A stretch of DNA of 64,000 nt, from positions 186,001 through 250,000 of the forward strand of contig NZ_JALBGD010000003.1 of assembly GCF_023507705.1 (NCBI RefSeq). The letters are read 5' to 3'. Positions 26,241 through 28,677 of this stretch are shown here, in pieces. The position numbers and the translations under genes were made by a program. The notes beneath the pieces are model-generated. The model did no database searches, was not told where the DNA came from, and saw only the letters and a list, made by a program, of their open reading frames with translations. This stretch comes from Stappia sp. WLB 29. GTDB taxonomy: Bacteria > Pseudomonadota > Alphaproteobacteria > Rhizobiales > Stappiaceae. Position 1 is the stretch's first letter. Each line of letters starts with the position of its first letter.

Positions 26241-27275
26241 TCAGGCAGCGGCCTTCTTCGGAGTGATCAGGCCGCGATTGACCAGAACTTCCGCGATCTG
26301 CACGGCGTTCAGCGCCGCGCCCTTGCGCAGGTTGTCGGCGACGACCCACATGTTGAGGCCATTCTCGATGGTCGCGTCCTCGCGGATGCGGCTGACATAG
26401 GTCGCATCCTCGCCGGCGCTCTCGTAAGGCGTGACGTAGCCGCCGTCCTCGTGCTTGTCGACGACGAGCACGCCCGGCGCCTCGCGCAGGATGTCACGGG
26501 CCTCCTCGGCCGTGATCGGGCGCTCGAACTCGATGTTGACGCTCTCCGAATGGCCGATGAACACCGGCACGCGCACGGCGGTGCAGGTGACCTTGATCTT
26601 CGGGTCGAGCATCTTCTTGGTCTCGGCCAGCACCTTCCACTCTTCCTTGGTGTAGCCGTCCTCCATGAAGACATCGATATGGGGGATGACGTTGAAGGCG
26701 ATGCGCTTGGTGAACTTCTCCGGGGTGATCGGGTCGTTCACGAAGATCGAGCGGGTCTGGTTGAACAGCTCGTCCATGCCGTCCTTGCCGGCGCCGGAGA
26801 CCGACTGGTAGGTGGACACGACGACGCGCCGGATGGTGGCCGCATCGTGCAGCGGCTTCAGCGCGACGACCAGCTGGGCGGTCGAGCAGTTCGGATTGGC
26901 GATGATGTTCTTCCGGGTGAAGCCGGTGATGGCGTCGGCGTTCACTTCCGGAACGATCAGCGGCACGTCGGCGTCGTAGCGCCAGGCCGAGGAGTTGTCG
27001 ATGACGACGCAGCCCTTGGCGGCGATCTTCGGCGACCACTCCTTGGATACGGTCCCGCCGGCGGACATCAGGCAGATGTCGACATCCGAGAAGTCGAAAT
27101 GGTCGATGGCCTGGCAGGTCAGCGTGCGGTCGCCGAAGGACACCTCGACGCCCTGCGACCGGCGGGAGGCAACAGGCACGACTTCGCTGGCCGGAAAGCC
27201 GCGTTCGTCCAGGATGTCGAGCATCTCGCGGCCGACATTGCCGGTCGCGCCGACCACTGCGATCTTGTAAGCCAT
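26241..27275 (-). CDS. asd: aspartate-semialdehyde dehydrogenase
   Basis: Asd reduces aspartyl phosphate to aspartate semialdehyde with NADPH. This is the branch point toward threonine, methionine, lysine and diaminopimelate. The 344-residue protein has the NADP motif VVGATGNVGREML at residues 7-19, the catalytic Cys in NPNCSTAQLVVAL near 130, and the C-terminal catalytic His region. The gene is preceded by 116 bases of structured leader and a 36-codon Thr-rich reading frame (27392-27502), then a TTGACA promoter. Its own ribosome binding site (GAGAGGA, 27286-27292) may be hidden by pairing with the leader. A strong terminator follows. Confidence 0.97.
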   Translation of the reverse strand: MAYKIAVVGATGNVGREMLDILDERGFPASEVVPVASRRSQGVEVSFGDRTLTCQAIDHFDFSDVDICLMSAGGTVSKEWSPKIAAKGCVVIDNSSAWRYDADVPLIVPEVNADAITGFTRKNIIANPNCSTAQLVVALKPLHDAATIRRVVVSTYQSVSGAGKDGMDELFNQTRSIFVNDPITPEKFTKRIAFNVIPHIDVFMEDGYTKEEWKVLAETKKMLDPKIKVTCTAVRVPVFIGHSESVNIEFERPITAEEARDILREAPGVLVVDKHEDGGYVTPYESAGEDATYVSRIREDATIENGLNMWVVADNLRKGAALNAVQIAEVLVNRGLITPKKAAA

Positions 27276-27286
27276 TGGTATTCAGT

Positions 27287-27387
27287 CCTCTCTTGCCGCT
27301 CCCCGCCAACCCGAAGCCGCCATCCCTGCGGGAGCCTCAGGTCCGTTCGGTCCCCCGTCGGACCCGGGGGGAGCGCGGGTCGAGAGG
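27287..27387 (-). promoter_or_regulatory. candidate sequestering helix over the asd ribosome binding site
   Basis: Two blocks just after the leader-peptide stop (CCTCTC, 27382-27387, and CGCTCCCC, 27368-27375) are exact, correctly nested complements of GAGAGG (27287-27292) and GGGGAGCG (27297-27304). GAGAGG is the Shine-Dalgarno region of asd. The helix would total 14 base pairs with one internal loop. A competing block (GGCTCCCGC, 27328-27336) and the hairpin arms GGTCCG/CGGACC lie between. No U-tract is present, so control would act on translation or through Rho rather than an intrinsic terminator. This is a sequence inference only. Confidence 0.45.
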
Positions 27388-27391
27388 GCCG

Positions 27392-27502
27392 TCAGGCGGT
27401 CGTTTTGCGGGTCGTCGTCGTGGTCGTGCCGGCGCACGCGACACCGTTCGCGGCTTTCGTCGCGGTGAACGGGGCGTTGAAAAGGGCGCACGGCTTCGGC
27501 AT
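27392..27502 (-). CDS. candidate threonine-rich leader peptide of asd (36 aa)
   Basis: The reading frame starts at ATG 27502 with GAGG six bases upstream and encodes a 36-residue peptide beginning MPKPCALFNAPFTATKAANG. Residues 26-31 are six consecutive Thr (ACG and ACC codons), followed by RKTTA and a TGA stop. In total 10 of 36 residues are Thr. It lies between a TTGACA promoter (27575-27580) and asd, 116 bases before the asd start. Runs of codons for the pathway's end product are the hallmark of ribosome-mediated attenuation (as in E. coli thrL), and asd feeds threonine synthesis. I infer a regulatory peptide. The alternative is a chance frame across a short GC-rich trinucleotide repeat. 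Confidence 0.6.
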   Translation of the reverse strand: MPKPCALFNAPFTATKAANGVACAGTTTTTTRKTTA

Positions 27503-27551
27503 GGGATCCCTCGCGGATCCGGACGGGAACTGTCCGGACCTCGACGGCGAC

Positions 27552-27580
27552 TAGATGACGTCATGCGCGGCCAATGTCAA
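27552..27580 (-). promoter_or_regulatory. putative sigma-70 promoter of the asd leader
   Basis: On the minus strand a perfect TTGACA (27575-27580) is followed after 17 bases by CATCTA (27552-27557), a weak -10 of the kind common in alphaproteobacteria. Transcription would begin near 27545, about 43 bases before the leader-peptide ATG. The intervening UTR has a TCCGGAC/GTCCGGA hairpin. Confidence 0.55.
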
Positions 27581-27612
27581 CATGGCCTTGCGGATGCCGC
27601 CTTGCTGCGGGA

Positions 27613-28677
27613 TCAGCCGTCGATGCGGAAGCGCAGCAGCAGCGTGCGCTGGAGGATCGAGCGGTTGTCGTCGGAGACGATGGTCAGGATGGTCTCGCCG
27701 GCGGCATTCCGATGCACGGCAACGCCTTCCATGTTGTCGATCTGCTCGGAAAAGCCGGCCTCAAGCAGCACGCGGCCGACGACCATTGCGCCGGGCTTCA
27801 GCTCGGTTGCAGGGAGCAGGCGCACCCGCATGCCGATGCCGTGGCGCAGGGTGAAGCGGCGCTCCAGCAGCACCATATCGCCGTTGTCCAGGAAGGTTGC
27901 GTCGGTGGCGTCGTAGGAGTCCTGCCGCAGAACGGTGAAGGTGCCGGGCGACGGTCCGCCCAGCAGGTAACCCGGCAGGTTCGAGTTGAAGGTTTGTCCG
28001 CGTTCGGAGACCACGACCAGCGTGCCGGCGAGCGGACCGGAGTTGGCGAAGGCGACAGCCTCCATGCCTTTGTTGTGCCGCAGGTTGCCGGTCATCGCGA
28101 CGGGCAGGTCCAGCGCCCGACCTGGGGTCCGCAGGTCGGTCAGCGGATAGGGGAAGGCGTAGATCGCGTGGTAGCGCTCGGTCGCCATGTAGAGCTCGCC
28201 GGTGCCGTCCGGATTGCGGCGCAGGGTCAGGGCCTCCGCATCGCCGCGGCCACGGTCCATCAGCGGCCTGCCGCTGGGGTCGATGATGGCGCTGAGGCGG
28301 GCGTCGCGCACCGCGAGCGGCCGTCCGTTCGGGTCCGCGTCGATGGTTGCGGTGAGCCAGAGACCATTGTCGGAGATTGCCACCATCTCGCGGCCGTCGG
28401 CGCTCAGGACCAGGCCGGACAGGCCGCCCATATGGCGGTTACCGGACAAGAGCTCCAGCCCGCCGAGAAAAGTCAGCCCGCCAAAGCGCGGCTCGTCGGC
28501 ACGGCCGATGCGGAACGCGTCGATCTGCTTGCTGCGGATCGTCACGTCCTGAAGGGGAACGTCGATGACCGCGCGGGCCGGGGCCGGCATCAGCAGCAGC
28601 ACTGCCGTCAGCACGACGGCGGCCAGCGCGGCAGCGCGCCGCGTCCGGAGCCGCAGGGTCGGCAGGAGCCGGGTCAT
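27613..28677 (-). CDS. secreted esterase-like/phytase-like beta-propeller protein
   Basis: The 354-residue protein has an N-terminal Arg-rich signal peptide (AAALAAVVLTAVLLLMPAPA, then RA). Its domain resembles the 'esterase-like activity of phytase' family, with LGGLELLSGNRHMGGLSGLV, DGREMVAISDNGLW, GDAEALTLRRNPDGTGELY, NKGMEAVAFANSG, and QIDNMEGVAVHRN. These proteins are periplasmic beta-propellers common in Hyphomicrobiales, and their true substrate is not established. The ATG lies four bases after the cobT stop on the same strand, so the gene probably ends the cobS-cobT transcript. The asd promoter follows its stop codon closely. Confidence 0.85.
   Translation of the reverse strand: MTRLLPTLRLRTRRAAALAAVVLTAVLLLMPAPARAVIDVPLQDVTIRSKQIDAFRIGRADEPRFGGLTFLGGLELLSGNRHMGGLSGLVLSADGREMVAISDNGLWLTATIDADPNGRPLAVRDARLSAIIDPSGRPLMDRGRGDAEALTLRRNPDGTGELYMATERYHAIYAFPYPLTDLRTPGRALDLPVAMTGNLRHNKGMEAVAFANSGPLAGTLVVVSERGQTFNSNLPGYLLGGPSPGTFTVLRQDSYDATDATFLDNGDMVLLERRFTLRHGIGMRVRLLPATELKPGAMVVGRVLLEAGFSEQIDNMEGVAVHRNAAGETILTIVSDDNRSILQRTLLLRFRIDG

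Follow-up and report, generated by a model that had tools for sequence, protein, structure and literature searches.

In Escherichia coli, the thrL leader places a run of threonine codons ahead of a threonine-pathway gene. Aspartate-semialdehyde dehydrogenase (Asd) supplies lysine synthesis as well as threonine synthesis, and both of these amino acids are products downstream of it. The accessible text of earlier reports describes two leader-peptide attenuators from the same bacterial class, Alphaproteobacteria, that sense other amino acids: a transcription attenuator with a Rho-independent terminator at Caulobacter ilvBN (PMC4117421) and the leader-peptide transcription attenuator trpL/peTrpL of Sinorhizobium (PMC10117765). 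The Corynebacterium ilvB uORF is also described as transcription attenuation in the accessible part of its report (PMC10272879). In the LEU element of actinobacterial leuA, a codon-run leader peptide is combined with RNA pairing to the Shine-Dalgarno sequence of the biosynthetic gene (PMC1262725). As far as the accessible text of that report goes, the LEU element is the nearest precedent found for a codon-run leader that touches a Shine-Dalgarno sequence, but in leuA it is the codon run that pairs with this sequence, with a pseudoknot, whereas in the asd leader a separate post-stop segment is predicted to do so.

For asd itself, the relevant description is that of SEP5 in Sinorhizobium meliloti, which has six threonine and three lysine codons near its 3' end and sits in the 5'-UTR of a gene called aspartate dehydrogenase (PMC10117765). 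SEP5 is translated, as judged by Ribo-seq and by Western blotting of a tagged fusion driven by another promoter, PsinI; the same report suggests that it is a leader peptide 'conserved only in Sinorhizobium' (PMC10117765). The accessible text of that account limits the conservation to Sinorhizobium and gives neither RNA structure nor mechanism, whereas this study traces the leader through much of an order and describes alternative folds. In the open-access literature, with most subscription papers outside the scope of the search, no description of an asd leader mechanism was found, and 'asd' does not occur in the accessible text of a report on alphaproteobacterial RNA motifs (PMC1273637).

The DNA analysed here is a stretch of 64,000 nucleotides from Stappia sp. 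WLB 29 (the window). A first-pass annotation had proposed a threonine leader upstream of asd and was aware of no described asd leader in Alphaproteobacteria, but SEP5 had been suggested before in Sinorhizobium (PMC10117765). Stappia is placed by NCBI in the Stappiaceae, Hyphomicrobiales, and these are "the family" and "the order" in all counts below.

The asd locus and its leader frame

The asd product of the window scores 476.8 bits against TIGR01296 (cut-off 324.2) and 524.6 bits against NF011456 (cut-off 223). Ahead of the gene lies a short ORF with a codon run for a product of the downstream pathway (Table 1), which translates as MPKPCALFNAPFTATKAANGVACAGTTTTTTRKTTA*. Threonine accounts for 10 of its 36 residues, with a run at positions 26-31 (27427-27410) that lysine adjoins. 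The control codons are followed by one further threonine and an alanine before the stop, and the gap from the stop to the asd ATG is 116 nt. Direct reading confirmed the 36-codon frame, the GAGG six bases 5' of its ATG and the run of six threonines among ten that the first-pass annotation had given. Its TTGACA promoter was borne out in part. The hexamer is present, TTGAC is invariant in 11 of 11 aligned genus sequences and CATNTA follows 17 bases past it in 9 of the 11, but a scan of 27200-27700 with a strict sigma-70 consensus found no promoter.

Table 1. Coordinates of the asd leader region in the window.
Feature	Coordinates	Strand	Basis
asd, aspartate-semialdehyde dehydrogenase, 344 aa, start codon ATG at 27275	26241..27275	-	matches to TIGR01296 and NF011456
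Leader ORF, 36 codons, ATG at 27502	27392..27502	-	read from sequence; codon-position entropy in relatives
Control codons TTTTTTRKT (Thr x6, Arg, Lys, Thr)	27401..27427	-	read from sequence; tails of relatives
Predicted antisequestor hairpin (regions 2 and 3), directly past the leader stop	27348..27391	-	fold of transcript ended before arm 4; arm-exchange test
Sequestor 5' arm (CCTCTC ... CGCTCCCC), sharing bases with the antisequestor	27368..27387	-	read from sequence; folds
Sequestor 3' arm (GGGGAGCG plus asd Shine-Dalgarno GAGAGG)	27287..27304	-	minimum-energy fold of full leader; arm co-variation
-35 element TTGACA, probable promoter, with -10-like CATCTA at 27557-27552	27575..27580	-	read from sequence; genus alignment

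Two side observations concern the same genome and genus. Elsewhere in the 4.75 Mb genome there is one further run of six or more threonine codons, inside a 608-codon open frame on contig C35 (L300, 973-2799) that, judged by eye, looks like a phage prohead protease/head protein. In one genome of the same genus (G007:C1:3814962-3815994) the asd match is in two pieces in different frames, reflecting a frameshift or a sequencing error.

Conservation of the leader

A leader was counted where at least 5 threonines stood among the last 16 codons before a stop and the stop lay at most 300 nt from asd. Such tails precede asd at 70 of 70 family loci, at 65 of 80 named Hyphomicrobiales loci and at 48 of 83 loci belonging to the order's other families (47 of 82 in the control-matched count, the larger count admitting one locus with a shorter upstream stretch), and at 6 of 69 loci outside Hyphomicrobiales (4 GTDB families); since the loci are related and the counts not independent, these figures measure spread and not probability. 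Order-1 Markov resamples gave 5 of 350 for the family, 6 of 400 for the named loci and 3 of 410 for the other families of the order, and stretches 600-1200 nt upstream gave 0 of 58, 0 of 160 and 0 of 48. The control outside the order covered 29 of the 69 loci, three of them positive, and found 0 of 145 resamples and 0 of 58 upstream stretches. No Thr-rich leader was found by the same threshold at 35 of the 83 loci from other families. Among the 15 named loci that fall below it, nine have four threonines with two or three lysines (e.g. Agrobacterium RITAKTTIKTV*), three from Aurantimonas and Aureimonas have three threonines with isoleucine or serine (LTKTTIII*), and in the last three (two Ancylobacter and one Beijerinckiaceae MAG) nothing was found. 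The distance from stop to asd has a median of 110 nt in 186 leaders, with a range of 69-162 that is partly set by a 65-165 filter.

Mean entropy over the last nine codons of 55 family sequences is 0.33, 0.57 and 1.22 bits at the first, second and third codon positions. In the same 55 tails all four threonine codons are in use and TGA exchanges with TAA as the stop; the L003 leader has one additional in-frame threonine codon. Between families the Thr/Lys tail is kept and the remainder of the peptide diverges. This comparison of relatives shows that the leader ORF is under purifying selection. Checks that the first-pass annotation had proposed turned out in favour of a leader, in that the frame, the threonine run and the nested helix are kept far beyond close relatives and the third codon positions are the most variable.

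Codon signature of the leader

The leaders were selected on threonine only, and at least one lysine codon is found among the last 14 codons in 186 of 186 distinct leaders, drawn from 214 entries, three of these outside the order. Across 46 representatives there are 103 lysine codons, 0 for asparagine, 2 for histidine or glutamine and 13 for proline, while the ratio of lysine to asparagine in the other frames of the same DNA is 64:15 (+1 frame) and 12:69 (+2 frame). The near absence of asparagine, glutamine and histidine codons speaks against composition alone as the explanation of the lysines, and an A/C-rich composition was therefore judged an unlikely source. By these codon counts lysine is as constant as threonine, and the label 'threonine leader' is too narrow: the threonine run of the original claim is conserved, but threonine does not act as the only constant residue. 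Mixed threonine and lysine codons fit the gene because Asd supplies both lysine and threonine synthesis. Isoleucine occurs in 15 and methionine in 9 of the 46 representatives. Isoleucine-bearing tails were seen in Pseudohoeflea (L079, MTTIKTKTTI*), Hoeflea (L090, RTTIKTKTTI*) and Aureimonas (L104, LTKTTIII*), suggesting that the amino-acid set may have shifted in these genera.

The asd leaders of Sinorhizobium (L047, L056 and L080) end in SKTTAKTTTKTV, with 6 threonines and 3 lysines, matching the SEP5 counts exactly. From these codon counts the two are very probably the same element, and the arrangement that SEP5 probably has, a small ORF in the asd 5'-UTR with its threonine and lysine codons clustered towards the 3' end, is found at the locus studied here as well. 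E. coli thrL and Rfam Thr_leader resemble it in having a threonine run before a threonine-pathway gene. It differs from thrL in that the gene is asd, the usual partner of threonine is lysine and not isoleucine, and the window has no terminator. A search of six loci including the window against Rfam 15, Thr_leader included, found no family over the leader at E <= 1, which ruled out a known RNA family; three sub-gathering matches to unrelated families all lie away from the leader.

A wider threonine regulon was considered and ruled out by a scan of the regions upstream of hom, lysC and thrC (16 loci in five family genomes), where no comparable leader was found. The only tail with at least 5 threonines there is a stretch with 6 threonines and no lysine about 800 nt upstream in L349, which looks accidental.

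Alternative RNA folds

Just past the leader stop, CCTCTC (27387-27382) is the exact complement of the asd GAGAGG (27292-27287) and CGCTCCCC (27375-27368) that of GGGGAGCG (27304-27297). Both nested complements had been noted in the first-pass annotation and are exact as described there, but the gap between GGGGAGCG and GAGAGG is 4 bases (GCAA) and not the 5 it had given. Seven sequences were folded for display. When the transcript is ended before the 3' arm, the expected local hairpin is predicted in five of them (the window, L009, L023, L047 and L054) and a local hairpin in another register in L018 and L038; in the full leader, long-range pairing is predicted in six, and L023 retains the local hairpin. 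The two folds are thus predicted to be mutually exclusive, since they share the 5' arm, and both co-vary.

Because the Shine-Dalgarno arm is poorly aligned both in the 74-sequence family alignment, for which RNAalifold gave a weak consensus only, and in a further alignment (A2), co-variation was assessed by comparing cognate with exchanged arms. Across the order, the antisequestor gave z-scores of -5.8 to -9.1, with 0 of 5000 permutations at each of three levels of redundancy; for the sequestor the counts were 1, 15 and 7 of 5000 (z about -3). An unrelated control pairing of the tail with arm 4 gave 140, 315 and 673 of 5000; it leans the same way, and relatedness therefore inflates the arm-exchange z-scores. 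The alternative folds predicted for short and full transcripts appear to co-vary across relatives, the order-wide sequestor signal being moderate and only moderately above the control pairing. Taken by itself, the Shine-Dalgarno sub-arm does not reach significance in the order-wide test (653, 1344 and 536 of 5000). Within the family it reached 0 of 5000 for 49 distinct arm pairs from 83 loci, with arms cut out by pattern and at least one (L161) mis-cut, and three control pairings gave 236, 803 and 1008 of 5000, not clearly significant. Double changes in the family include CUCGUCC:GGACGAG versus CUCAUCC:GGAUGAG and CUUCUC:GAGAAG versus CCUCUC:GAGAGG, so that the compensatory changes which the first-pass annotation had proposed to look for in the 27368-27387/27287-27304 helix are present. 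In a clade including an uncultured Roseibium (L034) the Shine-Dalgarno pairing is weak, about -5 kcal/mol.

The stability of the window leader is not unusual for its own composition (z -0.35), and arm pairing compared with shuffled arms has a mean z of -1.1, with 12 of 51 below -2. The cost of losing the 2:4 pairs, calculated by splitting the transcript and without a random control, has a median of 7.8 kcal/mol in 33 sequences and is 15.0 in the window and slightly negative in L007 and L020. The 1:2 helix (tail with post-stop segment) of the classic scheme is weak, with 35, 862 and 2555 of 5000 in successively less redundant sets.

Discussion

The Thr/Lys leader before asd is real and conserved, and it very likely has a regulatory role. 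It is probably a ribosome-mediated attenuator that responds to threonine, and probably also to lysine, and acts on asd translation initiation. That it senses the charging of threonine and/or lysine tRNA can be held with high confidence, and that in Hyphomicrobiales it acts mainly on translation initiation is likely. The exact order of folding events proposed here has about an even chance of being right. While the transcript is still short, the post-stop segment would pair with the adjacent downstream segment (the antisequestor); alternatively, in the full leader, its partner would be the asd Shine-Dalgarno region, about 60-95 nt farther downstream (the sequestor). With ample charged tRNA-Thr (and tRNA-Lys), ribosomes would reach the stop and sit over the beginning of the post-stop segment, which would block the antisequestor and leave CGCUCCCC free to capture GGGGAGCG, so that the Shine-Dalgarno sequence would be closed and asd expression low. 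When tRNA-Thr or tRNA-Lys is short, the ribosome would halt in the Thr/Lys run, and the post-stop segment, free early, would be trapped by the antisequestor and asd would be translated.

Equilibrium folding bears on the last of these steps. Free 5' ends were tested between -60 and +3, counted from the stop, and each of them left the window Shine-Dalgarno sequence closed, at 0.13-0.17 unpaired; the value rose to 0.42 and then 0.74 only when the cover extended 9 to 12 nt from the stop. Since the sequence stays closed up to +3, opening by a ribosome at the early threonine codons needs a kinetic trap. In these models, folding would have to be kinetic, or else ribosomes at the last codons would have to contribute by direct masking. 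In the second case, as in erm-like systems, a ribosome at the last threonine codons or the stop would cover the 5' arm of the sequestor and open the Shine-Dalgarno sequence, the antisequestor being secondary; the sensor would be the same and the folding step would differ. The rise in the window from 0.17 as cover reaches +9 and +12 speaks for such masking, as does the climb in mean accessibility between +3 and +12 in 26 family sequences (0.45 to 0.63) and 35 others (0.45 to 0.52), and at codons -2 and -3 threonine is found more often than any other residue (31 and 36 of 48 representatives). However, a ribosome stalled at the first threonine codons falls short of the arm, and masking leaves the strong co-variation of the antisequestor unexplained, so that it is put forward here only tentatively. 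Several relatives (e.g. L023 and L029) are predicted to have a mostly open Shine-Dalgarno sequence whatever the state. Stalling-based folding and direct masking both predict more Asd when threonine or lysine is short.

Transcription attenuation, intrinsic or Rho-dependent, in place of translational control is improbable for the window, where a scan of 27200-27700 found no terminator-like site. The intrinsic terminator that a classic thrL-type leader has between leader and gene is thus absent from the window, in agreement with the first-pass annotation, which had reported no U-tract and took the control to be translational or Rho-linked; the missing U-tract fits control of translation better than an intrinsic terminator. 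Of the 177 distinct leaders scanned in the order, 171 are likewise free of a terminator-like site, and the 3' arm includes the Shine-Dalgarno sequence. In favour of transcription attenuation, there are six leaders outside the order (L182, L183, L196, L308, L311 and L322) whose Thr/Lys tails lie 110-140 nt ahead of asd. In all six a hairpin followed by a T-run lies between leader and asd, by a criterion without a shuffled control; they are probably a transcription-attenuation version. By the same ad hoc criterion, also without a shuffled control, a terminator-like hairpin and T-run were seen in 6 of the 177 leaders within the order (L063, L071, L105, L109, L226 and L169), which comprise Brucella, Mesorhizobium, Phyllobacterium and Aminobacter loci, one family locus and one further locus, and mixed control is possible there. 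The simplest reading of this distribution suggests one sensor with two output modules that may have been exchanged between orders. The evidence is evenly poised on a broader version of this, in which an old alphaproteobacterial Thr+Lys leader would control the branch-point enzyme Asd and its output module would have been exchanged: some orders would use transcription terminators, Hyphomicrobiales would sequester the Shine-Dalgarno sequence, and a few loci resembling those of Brucella, Mesorhizobium and Phyllobacterium may do both, with isoleucine codons joining in some clades (LTKTTIII*, MTTIKTKTTI*).

It is very unlikely that the peptide acts in trans after its release, as proposed for peTrpL, or that translation of the leader aids asd by coupling. 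Tagged SEP5 can be detected as a protein (PMC10117765), but a conserved Thr/Lys tail on a peptide that otherwise diverges between families fits a role of the codons and not of the product, and the median stop-to-asd distance is long for coupling. It is hardly credible that the open frame arose by chance in GC-rich DNA and that the complementarity to a purine-rich Shine-Dalgarno sequence is fortuitous too. GC-rich arms do pair well even when shuffled, but conservation, codon signature and co-variation contradict this reading, and the counts against resamples and upstream stretches rule out a chance frame.

New in this study are the spread of the leader through the order, its Thr+Lys signature, the alternative folds reaching the Shine-Dalgarno sequence and the apparent exchange with terminators in other orders. 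The leader as such is partly foreshadowed by SEP5; the arrangement is widespread in a large bacterial group and yet hardly described. If ribosome-mediated control of asd holds, it would be a regulatory switch on the shared step of lysine, threonine and methionine synthesis in much of the order, including Rhizobium, Sinorhizobium, Mesorhizobium, Stappia and others. The leader would be bivalent, with two end products of the aspartate pathway read by one codon string, and with its relatives it would form a natural series, the same ribosome sensor controlling transcription termination in some members and translation initiation in others. SEP5, a small protein already known to be translated, also gains a testable role.
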